From: an uncultured Bacteroidales bacterium
GTDB lineage: Bacteria > Bacteroidota > Bacteroidia > Bacteroidales > UBA4417
DNA: 38,919 bases
NCBI GenBank assembly: GCA_903946925.1
Contig: CAJAXK010000174.1
Location: 1-38,919 of the forward strand
Direction: 5' to 3'
Position numbers and translations under genes: made by a program
Shown here: piece by piece, positions 3,677 through 37,441 of the stretch
Position numbering within the stretch: position 1 is the first letter of the stretch
Layout: every line of letters begins with the position of its first letter
The notes under the pieces: generated by a model
Seen by the model: only the letters and a program-made list of their open reading frames with translations
The model's database searches: none
Told to the model about the DNA's origin: nothing

Positions 3677-5446
3677 CTACTTCACAAAAGCCATTACCAG
3701 AATAGCCTCCGTATTTGATTTATTGGTTATCCGGTAACTTTTGGCGGCGGCAGGAATAACAAATGTTTCGGCATAAGCGAAGCATTGACGAATGCCATTT
3801 TTTGTTTTTAGCTCTATACTATTGCCTTCTACCAGGCTCATTACATGGCACTTACTTAGGGTTTCAATTTCAATTTCACCTGTAAAGTGATACCTGTACA
3901 CATCGTACAAATGGGTTTCGTGCGTTGGCAAATGGTACAAAACCCAATCGGCTCCTTGTTTGAGTTTTACCGGTTTTGAAATCAGGTTCTGGGTAACATA
4001 ATCACCTTTCCGTTCAAAATTGAGGTTCTCCATACCGCGATCAATATTTATTGGACGTGGTTTACCATCCAAATCGAGGCGCAGCCAATCGTACATTTTA
4101 AATGTAAAAATATAGGGCGTGGAACTGATTTCGAGCACAAGGTTATTGGTTCCTGAGCCATGAATCGTTCCGGATGGGATAAGGAACAAATCGTGTTTGG
4201 AAGCTTTATGTTTCTGCACAAAATTTTCGATTTCGATAGGTTCCGAATCCCTGAAACTTTTTTCCAATGCTGACCTGAATAATTCTGGTTCAATATCATC
4301 CTGAAAGCTAAGGTAAACATCGGCATTATCTTTTGTATCCAGAATATAGTACGTTTCTTCTTGCGTGAAATTTTCGCCAAAATGCTCCTTCATGTACTCA
4401 GGTCGAGGATGGCACTGGATGGAAAGGTTACCGCCATCGAATGTGTCCAAAAAATCGAACCTTATCGGGAATTCGTTTCCATATCTTTCGTAACAATCAC
4501 CAAGTACCGATTTCCCTTCGAGGAACATCAGGCAATCAAATGAAAATTCCAGCAATAAGCCTGAACTAAAGAGAAGCAAGCCATTTTCCGGCACAATCAA
4601 TTCAAACGACCATGCATAATTGGGCACATTTTTATTTAAGCCGGTAATATGATCCTTAATCCAATTCCCGCCCCAGGCTCCAGGCTCAAACCACGGTCGG
4701 ACCCGAAAAACATTTTCTGCCATGGTTTTTATGGAATTCCTGAACACATTTCCATCAACCCAAACAGGTTCTTCTGGTCGCTGGGTATCAATAAAAATAT
4801 CAATTTTCGGTAAAATTTCTTGTTTGTGACTGTTCAGCACAACCCAGTCAACAAAATAGAACCTTTTATACATTGATTTTGGGTCACTTGCCTTTGTAGC
4901 ACCAAGATTGGCAATACTTCCGGCACGCGCCCTGAACTGGATTTCATTTTTAGGTACATCCAAGTAAACCAAAGTGCCTTGCAATCCCAAGAGTGACGCC
5001 CCGCAACCATAAACAATTTTCAATTTTTCGTTGAGAACAGGCTTGGTTTCCGCCAACTTTTCGGCATCAAAAAAATCAAGAAGTCTGAGAGTTGTTCGTT
5101 TTCCAAAAATCGGATCATCGCCACCAAGAAAAGGAGCAATAAGTTCTTCAATATCTGATGCTTCTTTGTATGATTTACTTATATCAATCCATTCTGCATC
5201 AATACCTTGCCTCGTTAATTCGGTATCAAGTTTTTCCCTGAAATCTTCAAAAAACACACCAATAAACCCATCAATAACCAAAAATTTACTTGAAACTATT
5301 TTTTGTGCAAGGCTCTCAAATCCGACAAACAATTGATTTTCTGGCAAATGGAAGGCTGGGTAAATATCGTATCCTCCACCATTTTGGGTCAAAGAGGAAG
5401 GCATCAGGTATTGTTCTGATTTTCGCCAATGGTTGTTTGTTGACAT
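3677..5446 (-). CDS. Class I mannose-6-phosphate isomerase with N-terminal kinase-like domain
   Basis: 589 residues, nearly twice the length of ordinary bacterial ManA (about 310-390). The C-terminal half is a cupin-type phosphomannose isomerase. [11 protein letters not shown] (Q344, H346), QEETYYIL (E364) and PSGTIHGSG (H429) match the conserved Q-x-H, E and H zinc ligands, and GAWGGNW lies near 256. It should interconvert mannose-6-phosphate and fructose-6-phosphate in the cytosol. Residues about 40-230 look like a nucleoside-kinase fold: [13 protein letters not shown] at 57-69, [10 protein letters not shown], a YLDVP strand and RFYFVDWVV. There is no GxxGxGK[ST] P-loop where one would be expected, so this half is probably not an active kinase. 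The ATG at 5446 follows the transporter stop by 62 bp. Confidence 0.85.
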
Positions 5447-8661: not shown

Positions 8662-8710
8662 CCCAGCCCTGAAAGGGCGAAATCTCAATAACCGTGGGTG
8701 AAGCCCACGG
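8662..8710 (+). repeat. REP-like double hairpin
   Basis: Two adjacent palindromes: GCCCT-gaa-AGGGC (about 8665-8678) and CCGTGGG-tgaag-CCCACGG (8692-8710, seven perfect pairs). This 'AGCCCTGAAAGGGCG ... CGTGGG(N)CCCACG' pattern resembles dispersed REP-like sequences seen in many bacterial genomes. It has no T-tract, so it is not a typical terminator. Confidence 0.55.
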
Positions 8711-8730
8711 AATATCAAAAACCAAAAAAT

Positions 8731-8850
8731 CATCCCACATCGCAATCCGCAATCCGCAATCCGCAATCCGACATCCGACATCCGCAATCCGACATCCGCA
8801 ATCCGACATCCGACATCCCACATCCCACATCCCACATCCGCAATCCCACC
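8731..8850 (+). repeat. 7-bp tandem array, GCAATCC / GACATCC / CACATCC
   Basis: About 16-17 seven-base units, all ending in ATCC, in a patterned mixture of three variants. Because 7 is not a multiple of 3 and the units contain no stop in this frame, the array reads through in frame with xerD as a spurious arginine/proline/histidine-rich N-terminal extension. The inverse units (GGATTGC) occur at 11865-11909, beyond the hydrolase gene. Confidence 0.85.
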
Positions 8851-8876
8851 TCCCCAAAAAAACTAACTTTGTAACC

Positions 8877-9785
8877 ATGATCTGGGAATCCTACAAACGT
8901 GGTTTTGACGCTTTTTTAAGGCTCGAAAAATCGCTTTCTGCCAATTCGGTGAATGCGTACAAGCGTGATATAGAAAAACTTACAGCTTTTTTGGAAGAGA
9001 GCAATATTGCGGTACAACCTACCGGGATCACGTTGTCACATTTGCAGGATTTCCTGAAATGGCTCAACAAATCGGCACTGAATGCCCGTTCGCAAATGCG
9101 GATAATTTCCGGAATACGGGCATTCTACAAATACATGTTGCTCGAAAACCTTATAGACCACGACCCCACCCAACTGCTCGATATGCCTCGCACTGGGCGA
9201 AAGTTGCCTGAATTCCTGACCATCAATGAAGTAGAAAGGCTGCTTGCAGCAATTGACCTTTCGAAGCCTGAGGGCGAACGCAACAAAGCCATTCTCGAAA
9301 CATTATACGGCTGCGGTTTGCGCGTTTCGGAATTGGTAAACCTAAAAATCAGCAGTATTTACTTTAACGAAGGGTTTATGCGCATAAACGGCAAAGGCAA
9401 TAAAGAACGCCTAGTGCCATTTAGTGGTAAAGCATTGAAACAGATAAATTTGTACCTGCACGAAATACGCAGCCATATTGACATAAAAAAAGGGAATGAA
9501 GATTTCCTTTTCCTGAACCGACGTGGGGCCAAGCTTTCCCGCGAAATGATTTTTACCATTATTAAAAACCTTGCTCTGTTTGCTGGAATACACAAAACCA
9601 TTGGCCCACATACACTTCGCCATTCGTTTGCAACACATTTGGTGGAAGGCGGTGCCGATTTAAGGGCGGTGCAGGAAATGCTTGGCCATGCAAGCATCAC
9701 AACAACTGAAATTTATACACACCTCGACAGGGCATACCTTAGGGAGAATATTATGGAACATCACCCGTTATACAAATGCAAGTAA
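8877..9785 (+). CDS. xerD: Site-specific tyrosine recombinase XerD
   Basis: 302 residues, the usual size for XerC/D. The ATG at 8877 (MIWESYKRGFDAFL) is the true start; the open frame continues upstream only because of the 7-bp repeat array. An N-terminal core-binding SAM-like domain (about 1-100) is followed by the catalytic domain with R149 (GCGLRVSEL), K173 (GKGNKERLVP), H245 and R248 (HTLRHSFATHL), H271 (LGHASITTTE) and nucleophile Y280 (IYTHLDRAYL). It resolves chromosome dimers at dif with XerC and can also drive integration of Xer-dependent elements. All catalytic residues are present. XerD rather than XerC is chosen from overall similarity, with some uncertainty. Confidence 0.9.
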   Translation: MIWESYKRGFDAFLRLEKSLSANSVNAYKRDIEKLTAFLEESNIAVQPTGITLSHLQDFLKWLNKSALNARSQMRIISGIRAFYKYMLLENLIDHDPTQLLDMPRTGRKLPEFLTINEVERLLAAIDLSKPEGERNKAILETLYGCGLRVSELVNLKISSIYFNEGFMRINGKGNKERLVPFSGKALKQINLYLHEIRSHIDIKKGNEDFLFLNRRGAKLSREMIFTIIKNLALFAGIHKTIGPHTLRHSFATHLVEGGADLRAVQEMLGHASITTTEIYTHLDRAYLRENIMEHHPLYKCK

Positions 9786-10807: not shown

Positions 10808-11836
10808 ATGAAGCTAACTATCTGGAAATCTATCAAATATCTGTTAATAATTGGTTTAGCGATATTTTTATTTGCGTTGTTCTATCCCAGGACTTATGAT
10901 ATGCCTCATATAAAACCAAGAGAAGAAACGCATTTCTGGGAGTTATCCACAGGTTCGAGGATTGCCTATACCCTCATTCCTACCAAAGGGGAAAAATCAC
11001 CATTTCCTATAATTTTCCTGCAAGGTGGGCCAGGAGGATTCTACTCTGACGAAACCATTAACAGGTTCAAACCTTTGGCCGAAATGGGCTTTGATGTGTA
11101 TCTTTATGATCAGGTTGGAGGTGGTTATTCCGAGCGTCTCGAAAATATTGAAGAATACACCGCAGAAAGGCATAAAAAAGATTTGGAAGAAATTGTAAAA
11201 AAAATTGGTGCCGGAAAAGTGATTTTTATTGCGCAATCCTGGGGCGCAATTTTGGCAACTCTGTATATTGCAGACAATCCAAATAGGGTGGAAAAAGTAG
11301 TTTTTACCGGGCCAGGACCAATACAACCAACTAATAATGGCTTGTCAACACTAAAGCCACCCGACAGCCTGCATTTGCGGGAACCCGTTTATTCGAATGC
11401 CAAAGCCAATAAATCTACCAAAAATCTAAGAAGTGAATTTGTGATGAGATGGGCAATGCTTTTTGGGAACAAACTTGCCTCGGATGTCGAGGTTGATGAT
11501 TTTCAAACCCTGCTCAATGGTAAACTCAATAAATCAACGGTTTGTGACACTTCCTTAAGTGTAACTGCCGAAGGAGGAGGCGGATATTATTCACAGATAA
11601 TGTCAATAAAAAGTTTAGCAAATGTGAAAGATCCAAGACCTGCTTTGAAAGCATCAAGTATTCCAATTTTGGTAATGAAAGGGCAATGCGACAACCAAAA
11701 GTGGGGATTTACAAATGAGTATTTACAGGTTTTCAAAAATCACCAACTGGTAATTATTCCGAATGCGGGCCACTCAATTTCGGTGGAGCAACCCAGTTTA
11801 TACCTTGAAACTATTGCTGATTTCCTCAACAAATAA
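10808..11836 (+). CDS. Membrane-anchored alpha/beta hydrolase (S33 prolyl aminopeptidase-like)
   Basis: 342 residues from the ATG at 10808. The N-terminal hydrophobic helix (about 9-26) should anchor it in the inner membrane or act as an uncleaved signal. The alpha/beta-hydrolase core shows the oxyanion motif LQGGPGGF (71-78), DQVGGGYS, the nucleophile elbow AQSWGA with Ser144, acid Asp295 (GQCDNQKW) and His322 (NAGHS). HGGPG-type motifs are typical of proline iminopeptidases (family S33), so it may release N-terminal proline from peptides or cleave small esters. The substrate cannot be told from sequence. Confidence 0.85.
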   Translation: MKLTIWKSIKYLLIIGLAIFLFALFYPRTYDMPHIKPREETHFWELSTGSRIAYTLIPTKGEKSPFPIIFLQGGPGGFYSDETINRFKPLAEMGFDVYLYDQVGGGYSERLENIEEYTAERHKKDLEEIVKKIGAGKVIFIAQSWGAILATLYIADNPNRVEKVVFTGPGPIQPTNNGLSTLKPPDSLHLREPVYSNAKANKSTKNLRSEFVMRWAMLFGNKLASDVEVDDFQTLLNGKLNKSTVCDTSLSVTAEGGGGYYSQIMSIKSLANVKDPRPALKASSIPILVMKGQCDNQKWGFTNEYLQVFKNHQLVIIPNAGHSISVEQPSLYLETIADFLNK

Positions 11837-11864
11837 GCAAACCGGAGTAACCGATAACCGTTTA

Positions 11865-11909
11865 GGATTTGCGGATTGCGGATTGCGGATTGCGGATTGT
11901 GAATTGCGA
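11865..11909 (+). repeat. 7-bp tandem array, GGATTGC
   Basis: Four near-perfect GGATTGC units plus decayed edges, immediately downstream of the hydrolase. It is the reverse complement of the GCAATCC units at 8731-8850. Confidence 0.8.
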
Positions 11910-11930
11910 TTAAACCCCAATTGCCAATAA

Positions 11931-12012
11931 CACTTCGACAAAACTCAGTGTCCGCCAATAAACCAATTACCAATACCCCACCAATGACACTTCGACCCTT
12001 CTCTGTGTCCGC
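11931..12012 (+). repeat. Two direct copies of a 25-bp hairpin-forming word
   Basis: CACTTCGACAAAACTCAGTG-TCCGC at 11931-11955 and a variant at 11988-12012 that keeps CACTTCGAC, CT(C)TGTGTCCGC. Each can form a small stem through CACT...AGTG-like ends. Similar CTTCGAC/CTCAGT/GAAGT words occur in the MITE-like copy at 19943-20142. Confidence 0.5.
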
Positions 12013-12018
12013 AAAAAA

Positions 12019-12069
12019 CCAATAACCCAATAACCAATAACCAATAACCAATAACCAATAACCAATAAC
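12019..12069 (+). repeat. 7-bp tandem array, CCAATAA
   Basis: About seven CCAATAA/CCCAATAA units in a row, reverse-complementary to the TTATTGG words at 8571-8619. It lies 3' of the convergent small acidic protein gene. Confidence 0.85.
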
Positions 12070-12115
12070 TCTACAAAAAGTAAACGGTTGCGCCAAAAAG
12101 AAAAATTTCCTAATT

Positions 12116-12544
12116 TTAGTAACTACCCCAGCTAACCAGCGTAAGTTCCTGATCATCAAAGTAAAAATCAATTTGGGCATCTTCAAACGTAACACGGTGT
12201 TCGCCCCAGGCTTCATCGTCTTCGTCCACTTCCTTAAACCCATTTTCCTTCATCAAAACTATAATATTGTCCTTCGTAACATTAAATACCTTTGAGTTGA
12301 AAAGCACGGTTTCGAGATTGTCGGATTCAATAGTAATCAAGGTTGGCTCGCCGTTTGCAGCATCGAAAAAGAAATTCAGCCCCATATCGGGATAATTCCA
12401 AACAATGCTTTCTACATTGCCATCCATGGCGCTTTCGAGTTCTTCAACATCTTCGGGTTCGCCTAATAAACCTCTAACAATTTCGGGTGTACATCCAAAC
12501 CTGATATCACCCATACCACTGTTCAATACTATTTGTAAGTCCAT
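12116..12544 (-). CDS. Small acidic conserved-type hypothetical protein
   Basis: 142 residues, strongly acidic (many E/D, for example EPEDVEELESAMDG and KEVDEDDEAWGEH), with no signal peptide or membrane helix. Alternating hydrophobic strands (MGLNFFFDA, LITIES, IDFYFDDQELTLVSWGSY) suggest a small alpha+beta cytosolic protein. The opening GMGDIRFGCTPEIVRGLLGEPEDV, a Gly-rich loop followed by a helix, is likely the conserved part. I do not recognise a named family; immunity-type proteins share this general character, but no toxin gene is adjacent. Convergent to the hydrolase. Confidence 0.6.
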   Translation of the reverse strand: MDLQIVLNSGMGDIRFGCTPEIVRGLLGEPEDVEELESAMDGNVESIVWNYPDMGLNFFFDAANGEPTLITIESDNLETVLFNSKVFNVTKDNIIVLMKENGFKEVDEDDEAWGEHRVTFEDAQIDFYFDDQELTLVSWGSY

Positions 12545-16730: not shown

Positions 16731-19133
16731 TTAAAATATTTTCGGATACTTCACCGGGTTATAATCGTGCATCATATTGTAGATGCAATCGAATACATCT
16801 TCAGCATTTGGGTTAGAGAAATAATCGCCGTCGGTACCATAAGCTGCCCTGTGAGCCTGGGCTGTAACGGTTCTGGGTTCAGAATCCAGGTAATTAAAGC
16901 CTTTTTGCCCTTCTAACACTTTTTGCATCATGTAAGCAGTTGCGCCTCCAGGCACATCTTCGTCAAAAAACACAATTTTATTGGTCTTTTTCAACGATTC
17001 GGTAATTGAATGGTTAATATCAAATGGTTCTAATGACTGAACATCAATAAGTTCTACCGAAATCTTAAAATCGCGAAGTTGGGCAGCTGCATCCTGTGCC
17101 ACCCGGACGCACGATCCATAAGTTACAAGTGTTACATCGTTTCCTTGTTCAATTATTTCGGGTATGCCAACCGGAATACAGAATTCTCCAATATTCAATG
17201 GTTTCTTTTCCCTCAAACGGTATCCATTCAGGGGTTCAATAATTAGTGCAGGTTCATCGGATTTCAGCATTGTGTTGTAAAAGCCCGCTGCCCGGGTCAT
17301 ATCGCGTGGGACTAACACATAAACGCCTCTAATACTATTGATTACCATGCTTAGAGGAGAACCGGAATGCCAAATGCCTTCCAATCTATGCCCGCGTGTT
17401 GTAATAATCATGGGCGCTTTCTGGCCGCCAGCGGTGCGGTATTGCAAAGTTGCCAAATCGTCGCTCATAAGTTGCAGGCCATATAGCAAATAGTCGAAAT
17501 ACTGTATTTCGGCCACAGGCCTCATCCCTCTCATGGCCAGGCCAATACCTTGTCCGATGATGGTTGCTTCGCGTATTCCTGTATCAAAAATCCGGTTTTC
17601 GCCATATTTTAACTGCAAGCCTTCAAAAGTTTGGTTTACCCCACCAATTTTGCCAACATCTTCACCGAACATAACGATTTTTTCGTTCTTCGCAAATTGT
17701 AAATCCCAATTGTCGCGCAATATTTCCCTGCCGGGAACAAGCAAGGCATCATCGCTATATTCAGGATTTATGGCTTGAACCTTCAATGCCGATTCGTCCG
17801 ATTCGCTGTAAAGATAGGTATTGAATTTTTTGCGGCTCTCGTTCAATTCTTCAGTTAGCCATTGAGTTACATTTATTTTTAACGAATTGGATGGGTTGCT
17901 GCACGAATCGCAAATAAGCCGAAGTATTTTTTTTGCCGCCGACATAATATCTTTACGTATGGGGTCGGCAATCTGGCGTAAATCCTCCTTTATGGAATTT
18001 ATTCGGTCTGTTTTTGCACAATTGCAGCTTGTAACATCGGCTATCCGAAGGAAATCATCGCGGAGTTTGTTCAGTGGTTTTTGGTAGTTGTTCCAGGCTG
18101 TTTTTCTTGCATTCCTTACTTGTTCAACAGCTTCTTTCTCAATCAGATCGAGTTCATCGGACGTTGCAATATCCTGAGAAATAATCCAATTGCGCATTTG
18201 CGAAATACAGTCGAAATCCTTTTCCCAACTTAACCTTTCGGTGGTTTTATATCTTTCGTGCGAACCAGAAGTGCTATGGCCTTGTGGCTGTGTTACTTCC
18301 GTGATATGGAATAAAACCGGCACATGGTTTTCGCGGCAATAGCTAACCCCTTCATAGTAAATTTTGCATAGTTCTTCATAATCCCAGCCTCTGGCGGTAT
18401 AAATCTTATAACCGGCTTTATCGGCAGTTTGCTCGAAGCCTTTAAGAACTTCCGAAATACTGGATTTGGTGGTCTGTAGTTTGTTTGGCACCGAAATGCC
18501 GAAACCATCGTCCCAAACCGACATGGCCATTGGAACCTGTAAAACACCTGCAGCATTGATGGTTTCCCAAAAATGGCCTTCGCTCGTACTGGCATCGCCG
18601 ATGGTTCCAAATGCAACTTCGTCGCCATTTTTCGAAATGTTGGTCAAATGAGCCAGTTCAGGGTTGTTGCGGAACAATTTAGATGTAAGCGCAAGCCCTA
18701 ACAGGCGTGGCATTTGGCCAGCGGTTGGCGAAATATCGGCAGATGAATTTTTCTGTCCGGTAAGGTTTTTCCAATGCCCGTTGCTGTCTAGGCTGCGGGT
18801 GGCAAAATGGTTGTTCATCAGGCGGCCGGCATTCATAGGGTTAAAACCTGCATCCGTATCGCCATAAATTTGAGCAAAAACCTCCTCCACTTTCATCAAT
18901 CCGGCAGCAAGCATAAAAGTTTGGTCGCGGTAATATCCTGAACGCCAATCCCCATCTTTAAAAACCCGAGCCATGGCCAACTGGGCCACTTCCTTGCCAT
19001 CGCCAAATATACCGAACTTGCCTTTGCCCGAAAGCACTTCGCGCCTACCTAATAAACTTGCCTGTCGGCTGAGGTTAGCAATACGGTAATCGCTTAAAAC
19101 TTGTTCCTTATTGAAAAAATTTGAAAAATCCAT
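16731..19133 (-). CDS. Fused alpha-beta E1 component of a 2-oxoacid dehydrogenase
   Basis: 800 residues from the ATG at 19133 (MDFSNFF). Residues about 1-340 are E1-alpha with the thiamine-diphosphate motif GDASTSEGHFWETIN (180-193) and THDP contacts around YYRDQ. Residues about 465-800 are E1-beta: FGEDVGKIGGVNQTFEGL, GIREATIIGQGIG, QYFDYL, VLVPRD, LIEPLN and VTYGSC. Together they decarboxylate a 2-oxoacid (branched-chain or pyruvate type) and pass the acyl group to lipoyl E2. No E2 or E3 gene is adjacent. The linker between the halves has four cysteines as SCNC (370, 372) and CDSC (408, 411), which is unusual. Fused E1 of this length is known in Bacteroidota. Confidence 0.9.
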   Translation of the reverse strand: MDFSNFFNKEQVLSDYRIANLSRQASLLGRREVLSGKGKFGIFGDGKEVAQLAMARVFKDGDWRSGYYRDQTFMLAAGLMKVEEVFAQIYGDTDAGFNPMNAGRLMNNHFATRSLDSNGHWKNLTGQKNSSADISPTAGQMPRLLGLALTSKLFRNNPELAHLTNISKNGDEVAFGTIGDASTSEGHFWETINAAGVLQVPMAMSVWDDGFGISVPNKLQTTKSSISEVLKGFEQTADKAGYKIYTARGWDYEELCKIYYEGVSYCRENHVPVLFHITEVTQPQGHSTSGSHERYKTTERLSWEKDFDCISQMRNWIISQDIATSDELDLIEKEAVEQVRNARKTAWNNYQKPLNKLRDDFLRIADVTSCNCAKTDRINSIKEDLRQIADPIRKDIMSAAKKILRLICDSCSNPSNSLKINVTQWLTEELNESRKKFNTYLYSESDESALKVQAINPEYSDDALLVPGREILRDNWDLQFAKNEKIVMFGEDVGKIGGVNQTFEGLQLKYGENRIFDTGIREATIIGQGIGLAMRGMRPVAEIQYFDYLLYGLQLMSDDLATLQYRTAGGQKAPMIITTRGHRLEGIWHSGSPLSMVINSIRGVYVLVPRDMTRAAGFYNTMLKSDEPALIIEPLNGYRLREKKPLNIGEFCIPVGIPEIIEQGNDVTLVTYGSCVRVAQDAAAQLRDFKISVELIDVQSLEPFDINHSITESLKKTNKIVFFDEDVPGGATAYMMQKVLEGQKGFNYLDSEPRTVTAQAHRAAYGTDGDYFSNPNAEDVFDCIYNMMHDYNPVKYPKIF

Positions 19134-19195
19134 GGGTCTATCTGTTGTTTTCAACAAGCCTAAAAATGACTTGTTTTGTTGTTCTTAAAGTGAAA

Positions 19196-19224: not shown

Positions 19225-19800
19225 TCAATAATTTTCTGCAAGTATCTCAAAATAAGCTTGAGGATGTTCGCATCCGGGGCAGTTTTTTAAAGCTCGGTCA
19301 CTCTCATATATCAATCCGCATTTGCGGCAAATCCATTTCACTTTTTTATCTTTTTTGAAAACTTCACCATTTTCAATATTAGCAGCTAGTTTCTCGAAAC
19401 GTTGGGCATAAAACTTTTTAATTTGGATAAAAAGTTTGAGCTTGGTAGCAATTTGTTTGTATCCTTCTTCCCATGCAACCCTCTCAAATTCAGAAAATAA
19501 GATGGAACACTGGGCGTTTTCGGCCTCAAAAGCAGCTTTTAGGTTTTCGGGTGTTGATGCAATAGGTTCGGCCTTAAAGGTAGAAGTTATATCAAGTTCA
19601 CAGCCCTCCAGAAAGCGGAAAAGGTTTTTGCAGTGCGACATTTTTTGTTCTGCAGTTTCGGTAAAAATTGCAGACATTTGTTGGTAGCCTTCCTTTGTGG
19701 CAACTTTGGCAAACCATAAATATTTCTGAATGGCTTGGGTTTCAATAGCAAACGCCTGCATTACATGCCGGGCTGTGTGGGAGTCCTTAAAAATATCCAT
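19225..19800 (-). CDS. Rubrerythrin-like protein with degenerate diiron site
   Basis: 191 residues from the ATG at 19800, preceded by AAGGAAAAG, the same length as Desulfovibrio vulgaris rubrerythrin. From memory of that protein the two align without gaps across the diagnostic stretches (ETA-Q---H-K-LF-FLEG, EEGY--IA, RF--L--NI--G-VF). The C-terminal rubredoxin domain has both knuckles, CRKC (158, 161) and CPGC (174, 177). In the four-helix domain only Glu20, His56 and Glu94 of the iron ligands remain. The others read Lys53, Gln97, Lys128 and Tyr131 where Glu, Glu, Glu and His are expected. Peroxidase activity therefore seems lost, while one-electron transfer by the rubredoxin iron is still possible. 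Family membership is certain; function is uncertain. Confidence 0.85.
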   Translation of the reverse strand: MDIFKDSHTARHVMQAFAIETQAIQKYLWFAKVATKEGYQQMSAIFTETAEQKMSHCKNLFRFLEGCELDITSTFKAEPIASTPENLKAAFEAENAQCSILFSEFERVAWEEGYKQIATKLKLFIQIKKFYAQRFEKLAANIENGEVFKKDKKVKWICRKCGLIYESDRALKNCPGCEHPQAYFEILAENY

Positions 19801-19942
19801 TTCTTTTCCTTTAATTTCAAGCAATAAAAATATACAAAAATTGGTTCATTCGTTCAATTTCGTGTGGTTTGGCTAAAAATACCACTTCAAAGTGTCTTCA
19901 ATAACGCTGTTTATTAATAAGTTTCTACAAAATTTAAACCAT

Positions 19943-20156: not shown

Positions 20157-20190
20157 AAAAAAAAACGGTTCAAGTTTTTCTGAACCGGTC
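20157..20190 (-). terminator. Rho-independent terminator of the glutathione peroxidase gene
   Basis: On the minus strand ACCGGTTCA-gaaaaact-TGAACCGT is followed by eight or more T residues. The GC-containing stem, short loop and T-tract are textbook, about 30 bp after the peroxidase stop. Confidence 0.85.
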
Positions 20191-20217: not shown

Positions 20218-20763
20218 CTATTTACCTGTAATCCATTTTAATATTTTTTCATCATTTGGTTTGGTTTTTGGCGAAACCATATCTACAAAATTTCCGTTCT
20301 CGTCAATCATAAATTTTTGAAAATTCCAGCTAACCTCAGCATCCATCTTTCCATTCAAAGCTTTAGATGTCAGCCATTTGTAAATAGGATCCATGTCATC
20401 GCCTTTAACCGAAATTTTTTGCATCATCGGAAAAGTAACCTTGTATTCTTCCTTGCAGAATTGCTTGATATCGGCGTTGGAACCCGGCTCCTGACTTAAA
20501 AAATTATTTGCCGGAAAGCCAATAACCATAAATTTGTCGTCGCCATATTTTGCATAAAGCTCTTGTAAATCTTTATATTGCGGGGTTAGTCCACATTTTG
20601 ATGCAGTATTAACGACCAATACTTTTTTGCCTTTGAGGCTTGCAAGGTCAAAATCAGCACCATCAATGGTTTTGGTTTTGAAACTATGGAAATTTGCTTT
20701 CTGGGCAAAACCAAATGTTACAGCAACCAACAGGGAGAGTGTAAGATACACTATTTTTTTCAT
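20218..20763 (-). CDS. Secreted/periplasmic glutathione peroxidase (thiol peroxidase type)
   Basis: 181 residues with a signal peptide (1-20, cut before QKANFHS). GPx catalytic residues are all visible: Cys57 in NTASKCGLTPQY, Gln91 in FPANNFLSQEPGS, and Trp146-Asn147 in VSWNFQKF. Cys rather than selenocysteine, plus Cys103 in QFCKEEY, fits the thioredoxin-dependent GPx type in which the second Cys resolves the disulfide. It would reduce hydroperoxides outside the cytosol. Monocistronic, with its own terminator. Confidence 0.92.
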   Translation of the reverse strand: MKKIVYLTLSLLVAVTFGFAQKANFHSFKTKTIDGADFDLASLKGKKVLVVNTASKCGLTPQYKDLQELYAKYGDDKFMVIGFPANNFLSQEPGSNADIKQFCKEEYKVTFPMMQKISVKGDDMDPIYKWLTSKALNGKMDAEVSWNFQKFMIDENGNFVDMVSPKTKPNDEKILKWITGK

Positions 20764-34537: not shown

Positions 34538-37441
34538 ATGAGAAAACTAACTACCTTATTGTTTAGCCTTTTGTTTGTAACGTTTGCTTTTGGCAAATCT
34601 GTTACAATCGAAAAAGCCAATCAAGTGGCAAACAATTATTTTGCCGTTTATTCGGGCAAAGCCACACCTGTTGTTGCCAACAGTTTCAGTAAATCCTATA
34701 ATGGTATTACCACATACCATGTGTTCAACTACGCAGGTGGTGGTTTTGTAGTTGTTTCGGCTGACGATGCTGCAACCCCAATTCTTGCCCAATCGAACGA
34801 AGGTTTTATTGAAACTCAAATCTCTAACCCTGCGACCCAGTATTGGTTTGATAGCTACAGCAAGGAAATTGCACACATTGTATCTTCAGGAATGGACAAT
34901 GCCGAATCAATTGGTGAGTGGAACCAGATCCTGAACAACCAGATTGACGCTCCCATGCTTGATGTTGCACCTTTATTGACAACCATTTGGGACCAAGGCC
35001 AGTGGTACAATTATTACTGTCCAGTTGCAGCAGGCGGACCTGGTGGAAAAGCTTGGGCTGGTTGCGTTGCAACAACCATGGGTCAGATAATGAAATATTA
35101 TAACTTCCCTGCAACTGGTGTAGGATCACACTCTTATGTTCATGCAACTTATGGTCAACAATCAGCTAATTTTGGTGCGACTTCTTATAATTTTGCATCA
35201 ATGGGTACATCTGCAAACAGCGGAAGCTACCAGCAAATTGCTACTTTGTTGTACCATGCGGGTGTTTCTGTAAACATGGATTATGCACCCGATGGTTCAG
35301 GCGCTTTTTCAACGGATGTGCCATGGGCGATGAGTAGTTATTTTAATTACGACAATTCAACAATTGCCCTTGCTAATAAAGTTGACTACACAACTGCTGC
35401 ATGGAAAGCTCTATTGATGTCGGAATTAGATGCAAGCCGCCCATTATATTACTCAGGTAGCGGACCTGCTGGCGGACATGCTTGGGTTTGTGACGGATAT
35501 CAAACCAGCACGGGTAAATTCCACATGAATTGGGGTTGGTCTGGAGCTTCAAACGGCTATTTTGCTATTGGCGCACTTAATACTGGAAATGGTACATTCA
35601 ATTCAACCAATGCTGTTGTTTATGGAATTATGCCGGGAAACCCAAATTTAATTGTTCGCTTTACAGATCTTTTGGAAAATAACTCAGCACCTTACGGCGG
35701 CACATTTGACATTAATTGCACAGTAGTGGCTGGAACACCAAGTGCAGTAAATCTATATATTGATAATGTTCTTGTTTTTAACACAACTCAAACAAGTTTC
35801 TCATATCCCTGGAATACTAGTGCTGCCGGATTAGGGACACATGTTGTTCGTTTAGAAGCTATTGATGCAACTGATACTGTATATCAGCAAGTAAATATTG
35901 GTCTTAGCGAGTGGGTTAAGCAAAATAGTGGTTTTGCAACAGCTTCAAGAGGAATTCAGTACGTTCATGCGGTTGATTCATCCTTGGTTTGGGCTACGGC
36001 CTATGATGGTAGCGGTGGAGCTGCAACTATTAATGAATTTACAAAGACTGTAAATGGAGGTACAACTTGGACAACCGGACAAGTTCTAGGCGGTTCAGTG
36101 TACGGTCTTGGTAATATTTGCGGACTTAATGCCAATGTTGCCTACGTTTCCGTTTATCACAAATCTACCCAAGACAATAATTGTGGAGTTTACAAAACTA
36201 GCAACGGAGGAACATCCTGGACTCATTTGGTAGGAGCTTTGCAAGGAGCCGCTTCATTTGCTGACAACGTTTGGTTCTGGGACGAAAATAATGGTATGTG
36301 CCATGGTGATGTTACTGGCACCGGTACTGCTGCTTATTTCGAAATTTATACTACCCAAAATGGTGGCACAACCTGGACACGTGTTCCTAAATCTGACATT
36401 AATAATGGAGTTGCAGCTTTAGCCGGTGAAGGCGGATGGACATCCGTAATTGATGTGGTTGGAAATACGGTTATGTTTGGTACCAACAAAGGAAATCTTT
36501 ATATTTCGCATGACAGAGGTTTACATTGGACTATGAAAAATACCGGTATTACCCCAATCACCGATGGTATAAATAAAATTTCGTTCAAGGATCAAATGAA
36601 TGGTTTGGTTGCACAAACAAATGCAACTGTTGTTTTAAGGGAAACCCATGATGGCGGCGCAACTTGGACAACCATTACCCCAACGGGGCCATTTTTAACA
36701 AGCGATATGGGATATGTACCTGGAACTGAAAACACATTTGTATCAACCGGTGCCGCCGCTGGATTTACTGGCGCTGCATACAGCTTTGATGGTGGTTACA
36801 CCTGGTCGCAATTTATGGGTACCGAAACAGAGCAATACCTTGCTTGTGATTTTGTAAGCAACCATTGTGGATGGGCTGGTGGATTCAATGTAAGTGCTGC
36901 CGAAGGCGGTATGAACAAATATGTTGGTGTTCTTGCTCCTGGTGCAGTTCTCAGCCCAGTTTCCAACCTTATTGCCCAGCCTTTAGATAACAGCGTTCAC
37001 CTTACTTGGACAGAACCTGCAACTTTGCCACTTAGTTACAATATTTACCGCAACGACACACTCCTCACCAACACTCCTTCAACCCAATATCATGATGCCC
37101 CTGTTGCTAATGGTCAGCAAAACTATTGCGTAACTGCTGTTTATGATTTGGGTGAATCACCAAAAGTTTGTACCATTGCCTGGATCACTGTAGGTGTTCC
37201 TAATACCGATGAGGCTGCTTACAAGGTATATCCTAATCCTGCAACCGAAGTTATTAACCTAATTGCCCCAGTGAAATTTACCGAAGTTCGGTTAATTAAT
37301 AGCCAAGGACAAATAGTTTACCGTAACAGCAATAAGGCTACTAACCTTCATATACTTACCGAAGGTTTTGAATCAGGAATGTACGTTCTTCAGATTTATA
37401 CCGGAACTCAAATGGTTTCAAAGAAAATTTCGATAAAATAG
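34538..37441 (+). CDS. Secreted C10 (streptopain-like) cysteine protease with BNR propeller, FN3 and type IX sorting domain
   Basis: 967 residues: signal peptide 1-19; propeptide (about 20-135) with the FVVVSADD motif of Spi-type inhibitor/propeptides; C10 catalytic domain (about 140-365) with Cys176 (KAWAGCVATTMGQIMKYY), His314 (GGHAWVCDGYQ) and Asn331-Trp332 (HMNWGWSG). An Ig-like domain follows (about 370-455). Residues 465-800 have six Asp-box (BNR) turns such as NGGTTW, SNGGTSW, QNGGTTW, DRGLHW, DGGATW and DGGYTW, a sialidase-type beta propeller. An FN3 domain spans about 803-885. The C-terminal domain begins KVYPNPATEVINL and ends VSKKISIK (type A sorting signal), so it is exported by type IX secretion and released or anchored at the surface. 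It should degrade proteins, perhaps on glycosylated substrates recognised by the propeller. Single gene with its own terminator. Confidence 0.9.
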   Translation: MRKLTTLLFSLLFVTFAFGKSVTIEKANQVANNYFAVYSGKATPVVANSFSKSYNGITTYHVFNYAGGGFVVVSADDAATPILAQSNEGFIETQISNPATQYWFDSYSKEIAHIVSSGMDNAESIGEWNQILNNQIDAPMLDVAPLLTTIWDQGQWYNYYCPVAAGGPGGKAWAGCVATTMGQIMKYYNFPATGVGSHSYVHATYGQQSANFGATSYNFASMGTSANSGSYQQIATLLYHAGVSVNMDYAPDGSGAFSTDVPWAMSSYFNYDNSTIALANKVDYTTAAWKALLMSELDASRPLYYSGSGPAGGHAWVCDGYQTSTGKFHMNWGWSGASNGYFAIGALNTGNGTFNSTNAVVYGIMPGNPNLIVRFTDLLENNSAPYGGTFDINCTVVAGTPSAVNLYIDNVLVFNTTQTSFSYPWNTSAAGLGTHVVRLEAIDATDTVYQQVNIGLSEWVKQNSGFATASRGIQYVHAVDSSLVWATAYDGSGGAATINEFTKTVNGGTTWTTGQVLGGSVYGLGNICGLNANVAYVSVYHKSTQDNNCGVYKTSNGGTSWTHLVGALQGAASFADNVWFWDENNGMCHGDVTGTGTAAYFEIYTTQNGGTTWTRVPKSDINNGVAALAGEGGWTSVIDVVGNTVMFGTNKGNLYISHDRGLHWTMKNTGITPITDGINKISFKDQMNGLVAQTNATVVLRETHDGGATWTTITPTGPFLTSDMGYVPGTENTFVSTGAAAGFTGAAYSFDGGYTWSQFMGTETEQYLACDFVSNHCGWAGGFNVSAAEGGMNKYVGVLAPGAVLSPVSNLIAQPLDNSVHLTWTEPATLPLSYNIYRNDTLLTNTPSTQYHDAPVANGQQNYCVTAVYDLGESPKVCTIAWITVGVPNTDEAAYKVYPNPATEVINLIAPVKFTEVRLINSQGQIVYRNSNKATNLHILTEGFESGMYVLQIYTGTQMVSKKISIK

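Follow-up and report, generated by a model that had tools for sequence, protein, structure and literature searches.

The question raised by this locus is what a rubrerythrin does once it has kept the iron-binding cysteines of its rubredoxin domain and lost most of the ligands of its diiron centre. The gene, here called RBX, lies on the minus strand of the window, that is, the whole stretch of 38,919 nucleotides from an uncultured Bacteroidales bacterium that was analysed; this strand reads as 191 residues and a stop, whereas the plus strand is interrupted by many stops. Its product has the architecture of a rubrerythrin, a four-helix ferritin-like bundle followed by a C-terminal rubredoxin domain, with the PF02915 and PF21349 profiles both above cut-off, the rubredoxin domain being of the rubrerythrin type (PF21349) and not a member of the classical rubredoxins (PF00301). 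Identity to intact homologues is about 41-52%, and the trees agree with common descent with the catalytic rubrerythrins. The AF2 model has a mean pLDDT of 86, exceeding 90 in the helices, and Foldseek returns the D. vulgaris rubrerythrin structures 1ryt and 1b71 as its best PDB matches. The original prediction had the protein aligning with D. vulgaris rubrerythrin without gaps at the same length of 191 residues, and this is borne out by 1b71, its best PDB relative, which aligns ungapped over residues 4-190. Features of the locus are collected in Table 1.

Table 1. Features of RBX and its surroundings, in window coordinates.
Feature	Position	Strand	Basis or remark
Fused E1 alpha/beta 2-oxoacid dehydrogenase component, downstream of RBX	16731..19157	-	Pfam, synteny
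RBX, diiron-less rubrerythrin, 191 aa, ATG to TAA	19225..19800	-	Pfam PF02915 53 bits, PF21349 39 bits; PDB 1b71 E 5e-45
C-terminal rubredoxin domain, residues 153-191, CRKCG...CPGCEHPQAYFE	19228..19344	-	Pfam PF21349 residues 156-185; nearly invariant, 24 homologues
Four-helix ferritin-like domain with altered site, residues 1-147	19360..19800	-	AF2 helices 8-36, 40-63, 83-111, 115-144
Tyr131 codon; ligand His131 in rubrerythrin	19408..19410	-	
Lys128 codon; bridging Glu128 in rubrerythrin	19417..19419	-	
Gln97 codon; Glu97 in rubrerythrin	19510..19512	-	Window's genus Q; family f6 E
Lys53 codon; bridging Glu53 in rubrerythrin	19642..19644	-	
AT-rich element shortly ahead of the RBX start	19822..19841	-	By-eye comparison; similar in most same-genus loci
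Terminator-like hairpin and T-run directly after gpx, between gpx and RBX	20166..20187	-	
Glutathione-peroxidase-family gene (gpx), N-terminal hydrophobic signal-like segment, upstream of RBX	20218..20763	-	Pfam PF00255 E 9e-40

At the seven positions of the diiron site RBX has E20, K53, H56, E94, Q97, K128 and Y131, where D. vulgaris rubrerythrin has E, E, H, E, E, E and H, and the catalytic set E20 E53 H56 E94 E97 E128 H131 is thus broken at four places. The residues first assigned proved right at every ligand once aligned to 1b71, and a proper alignment, which might have brought Glu or His to the lost ligand sites, places K53, Q97, K128 and Y131 there. RBX should accordingly not be classed among the catalytic rubrerythrins, whose defining ligand set it lacks; automatic annotation would nevertheless label it a working one, because it just passes the cut-off of the NCBIfam rubrerythrin equivalog NF045767 (201.4 versus 200 bits, a margin of 1.4 bits). 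The two CxxC knuckles, said at the outset to be kept, are intact (C158, C161, C174 and C177), and these cysteines are invariant in all 24 homologues.

The part played by each lost ligand can be read from sulerythrin, whose numbering runs two lower than that of RBX from residue 94 on. There, the two metals are bridged by the carboxylates of E53 and E126 (PMC9589262; PMC12851003), one metal being bound by E20 and H56 and its neighbour by E92 and H129 (PMC9589262), in agreement with the initial claim that residues 53 and 128 are bridging carboxylates turned into lysine. By this ligand assignment the Fe1 site of RBX keeps E20 and H56, the Fe2 site keeps only E94, and both bridges are Lys. A single missing bridging Glu is insufficient to abolish iron binding, since the sulerythrin E126A mutant still holds two irons (PMC12851003), so that the claimed inactivation does not follow from one such substitution; the case rests on four ligands lost together and two lysines gained, and, judged from these replacements, inactivation of the centre is supported.

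The prediction that fold and hydrophobic core are both kept stands for the fold, but the core is not simply conserved. G19, G93 and Y102, which catalytic relatives conserve, give way to larger or non-polar residues in the diiron-less clade, the second-shell glycines to larger ones and Y102 mostly to Phe. We infer a metal-free, repacked and charge-balanced core, in which K53 and K128 would pair with E20 and E94, formerly neutralised by iron, in families f1 and f6; through this pairing the bundle could fold without metal. In family f95 the balance would come from a single Lys at position 20.

Loss of the site is not drift in one genome, since 24 diiron-less sequences from three Bacteroidales families form a single clade in the maximum-likelihood tree, with 100/100 support that persists after masking the nine site columns. 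The pattern E20/K53/H56/E94/K128/Y131 is invariant in 22 homologues from two families (f1 and f6) and is far beyond chance. Within the window's genus Q97 does not vary either, and 11 of the 16 sampled genomes there carry RBX with an identical site pattern, the ten relatives besides the window's own being 68-87% identical to it; the 12 genomes of f6 with the diiron-less form read E20 K53 H56 E94 E97 K128 Y131. The suggestion that orthologues might set K53, K128 and Y131 apart as marks of a clade therefore holds in that these are fixed in two families, with the third, f95, having lost the site by other substitutions. Its two genomes (G109, locus L104, where residue 53 is Cys; G210, loci L077/L103) show K20, E53 or C53, H56, E94, I97 or L97, S128 and Y131, apparently another path, by other residues, to a core free of metal, and the exact place of this pair within the clade is unsure because of long branches. 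In the scan of named genomes the RBX type appears in uncultured Bacteroidales and in one Lentimicrobium MAG. No further diiron-less members were found among 395 class-level genomes (E 1e-72), none besides the window's own among 395 phylum-level genomes (E 1e-68), and none on viral contigs, whose single match was weak and confined to the rubredoxin part.

Amino-acid distances within the genus were then compared for RBX and the intact rubrerythrin paralogue of the same genomes. The mean for the ferritin domain is 0.258 in RBX versus 0.105 in the paralogue, and that for the rubredoxin domain 0.041 versus 0.113, so that the former domain of RBX changes about 2.5 times faster and the latter about 2.7 times slower. 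As measured by these distances, the ferritin domain is shown to have been released, and the rubredoxin domain, cysteines and surface alike, to be more tightly constrained than that of the catalytic paralogue. Rough dN/dS values of about 0.06 (ferritin domain) and 0.01 (rubredoxin domain) are not relied on, since silent sites are saturated in around half of the pairs or more. Although the ferritin domain is freed, the former diiron site is, on the alignment of 22 sequences, still constrained: six of its seven positions are invariant, against 30 of the 138 ferritin-domain columns (hypergeometric p 4e-4, the 22 sequences being related and not independent). Over the whole protein, only E53K, I124F, E128K and H131Y are fixed differently from the catalytic relatives.

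Genomes with the diiron-less form share the gene order gpx, RBX, E1. Wherever the contig extends far enough, f1 and f6 loci all have gpx ahead of the diiron-less gene; downstream, E1 is the very next gene in f1, and in f6 and f95 two other genes intervene. An operon of gpx and RBX was considered and rejected: the two genes are probably transcribed separately, because a terminator-like hairpin stands between them, in the window and, in the same arrangement, in locus L071. The AT-rich element ahead of RBX may be its own promoter, with a weak sigma-70-like match. A direct partnership of the two products is likewise doubtful, since gpx has a signal-like N-terminus and RBX has none. Neither is there a general pairing of gpx with rubrerythrin in the order, the genes adjoining, across 149 order genomes, only for diiron-less genes and in one f101 genome. 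In family f101, where E1 is also syntenic, the order is gpx, a free rubredoxin of about 50 aa, a rubrerythrin with all ligands, and E1. Descent of RBX from the rubrerythrin of this slot was rejected, since the slot is common to both but the tree does not join them.

Several other features of these surroundings were recorded. At the f101 loci (L106:3517-3654 and L107 at about 4905-5039) the free rubredoxin lies between gpx and the intact rubrerythrin, and a divergent peroxiredoxin adjoins gpx; the four genes look like a compact peroxide-defence cluster. A thioredoxin-like protein of 110-115 aa with a CAPC motif is encoded upstream of gpx at L060:6608-6955, L069:6801-7127 and L075:5496-5828, and does not adjoin gpx in the window. 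Downstream of the diiron-less gene, f95 carries genes for a PadR-family-like regulator and a PspC-like protein. Further away in the window, 34538-37441 encodes a 967-aa secreted protein that by eye is C10-type cysteine peptidase-like with a C-terminal type IX sorting-like segment, and at 8694-9000 and 11740-12243 there are short stretches of an intergenic repeat that translate into IRNPQSAIRHPTS-like peptides and lengthen mechanical ORFs.

A free rubredoxin gene (PF00301) occurs in none of the 15 tested genomes with the diiron-less form, and the PF00301 search of the window's own genome returned nothing; the domain is found within frames of more than 200 aa in four of the 15, two of these, when examined, being flavin reductases with a rubredoxin tail. 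The link between RBX and missing free rubredoxin is suggestive and no proof, because genomes G007, G015, G404, G414 and G020 have neither. Flavodiiron proteins usually receive electrons from rubredoxin. A protein of this type is present in 14 of the 15 genomes, the two examined being without a rubredoxin domain; one of these two, that of the window's genome, has 404 aa and the HxExDH motif.

The reading favoured here, to which an even chance may be given, is that the rubrerythrin of an ancestor of the three families lost its peroxidase centre, in a single event, and that RBX is its descendant, retained as an electron carrier of the rubredoxin type. Its iron-free four-helix bundle would serve as a scaffold and oligomerisation platform, and its rubredoxin iron, reduced by an NAD(P)H-dependent reductase, would pass electrons on to a partner, for which the same genome offers as candidates the 404-aa flavodiiron protein and the intact rubrerythrin. 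Considering that (i) the diiron-less sequences form a single clade, (ii) the site changes are fixed, (iii) the distances of the two domains have shifted in opposite directions, (iv) the gene occupies the slot described, (v) free rubredoxin is lacking, (vi) nearly all of these genomes have a flavodiiron-type protein, and (vii) f95 arrived at a lost site through different residues, these genomic data are consistent with such a carrier; against it, the f101 rubrerythrins share the slot but do not join the clade in the tree, some genomes without the diiron-less form lack free rubredoxin as well, and four of the 15 do have a rubredoxin domain within a longer frame. Of the two new roles originally proposed, electron carrier and redox sensor, the first fits best.

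The main rival to the carrier reading, itself unlikely, is that RBX is the non-catalytic subunit of a mixed oligomer, pairing with an intact rubrerythrin so that rubredoxin electrons reach the diiron site of the partner, as Flv1/Flv2 would with Flv3/Flv4. Such pairing is favoured by the arrangement in D. vulgaris rubrerythrin, where the rubredoxin that donates electrons to a diiron site belongs to another subunit. A suitable partner is also at hand, as the RBX-bearing genomes of the window's genus carry a rubrerythrin with all ligands (as two fragments in G014), and so do most f6 members; moreover, Flv1/Flv2 are without canonical diiron ligands and Flv2/Flv4 has been shown to be a heterodimer (PMC4390876). 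Against this, the window's genome encodes RBX and the intact rubrerythrin on separate contigs, and G210, a 100% complete genome, has the diiron-less form and no other rubredoxin-containing rubrerythrin. The mixed oligomer is consequently not general and pairing not obligatory in G210, which weakens its obligatory version.

Somewhat less probable again is a redox or peroxide sensor, in which oxidised rubredoxin iron, or Tyr131/His56, would alter contacts with a partner. The very strong constraint on the rubredoxin domain, the peroxidase gene adjoining in two families and the PadR/PspC genes of f95 would suit it, but the Pfam profile search finds no DNA-binding or signalling domain in RBX, and the PadR/PspC pair does not adjoin the diiron-less gene in the other families.

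That the site still binds metal, for example one zinc or iron through E20, H56 and E94, with some peroxidase or oxidase activity left, appears improbable. The invariance of these three residues in two families and the two irons retained by sulerythrin E126A speak for it; nonetheless, four of the seven site residues are lost, two of them to positively charged Lys, and, because f95 has Lys at 20 and L104 has Cys at 53, the metal set common to the clade is limited to H56 and E94.

Highly improbable is metal-free catalysis by amino-acid radicals, with Tyr131 beside Lys53/Lys128, after the manner of the DOPA radical of class Ie ribonucleotide reductase R2. Both proteins belong to the same fold superfamily, R2e swaps three metal-binding Glu for Q, S, K or V, P, K (PMC11846895), and Tyr131 is invariant in 24/24 homologues; but Y131 occupies a ligand position where the tyrosine of R2 sits beside the site, no NrdI-like partner was seen, and Y102 is mostly Phe. 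Just as slight is the chance of the related proposal that the K53/K128/Y131/H56 cluster is an active metal-free redox site, holding a modified or radical-forming tyrosine, that would be fed by rubredoxin iron of the same or a neighbouring chain; if true, RBX would be to rubrerythrin what class Ie R2 is to class Ib R2. Least credible of all is a decaying gene heading for loss: the faster change of the ferritin domain relative to the intact paralogue and the absence of RBX from some genomes of the window's genus would allow it, but the reading frame is open in every homologue found, the gene is conserved over three families and syntenic, both rough dN/dS values are low, and the site residues are fixed.

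A protein that almost certainly is no peroxidase and that is yet labelled rubrerythrin matters for predicting oxidative-stress defence in anaerobes. The clade also offers a phylogenetically clean natural experiment, in which a peroxidase family has been deprived of its catalytic metal site and its electron-transfer domain has become the conserved part; the intact and diiron-less copies within one genome form a ready pair for asking what a rubrerythrin does without the diiron site, and f95 may offer a second solution for neutralising a buried carboxylate cluster once the metal is gone. A literature search of incomplete coverage returned no description of a diiron-less rubrerythrin.

Among known systems, D. 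vulgaris rubrerythrin resembles RBX in length, gapless alignment, four-helix bundle and C-terminal rubredoxin with four Cys, and differs in the diiron residues, of which RBX has replaced 4/7, turning both bridging Glu into Lys. Free rubredoxin (PF00301) shares the Cys4 iron site of an electron carrier and the same gene slot in f101, but has about 50 aa and no four-helix scaffold. The kind of event is nonetheless already known, because three parallels exist. In the ferritin light chain the heavy chain's iron site has given way to a salt bridge between Lys62 and Glu107 (PMC11396501), and this member of the same superfamily would thus have used the same trick, a Lys-Glu pair in place of iron, although it forms cages and has no rubredoxin domain. 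Class Ie R2, in its QSK and VPK variants, has three metal Glu replaced and works without metal (PMC11846895); the exchange of metal-binding Glu for Lys and Gln, among others, would give both proteins a metal-free four-helix site, but R2 acts through a DOPA radical. Finally, cyanobacterial Flv1/Flv2 belong, like RBX, to a diiron electron-transfer family and have non-canonical ligands alongside canonical relatives with which they are paired (PMC4390876), in a different fold and with different domains.
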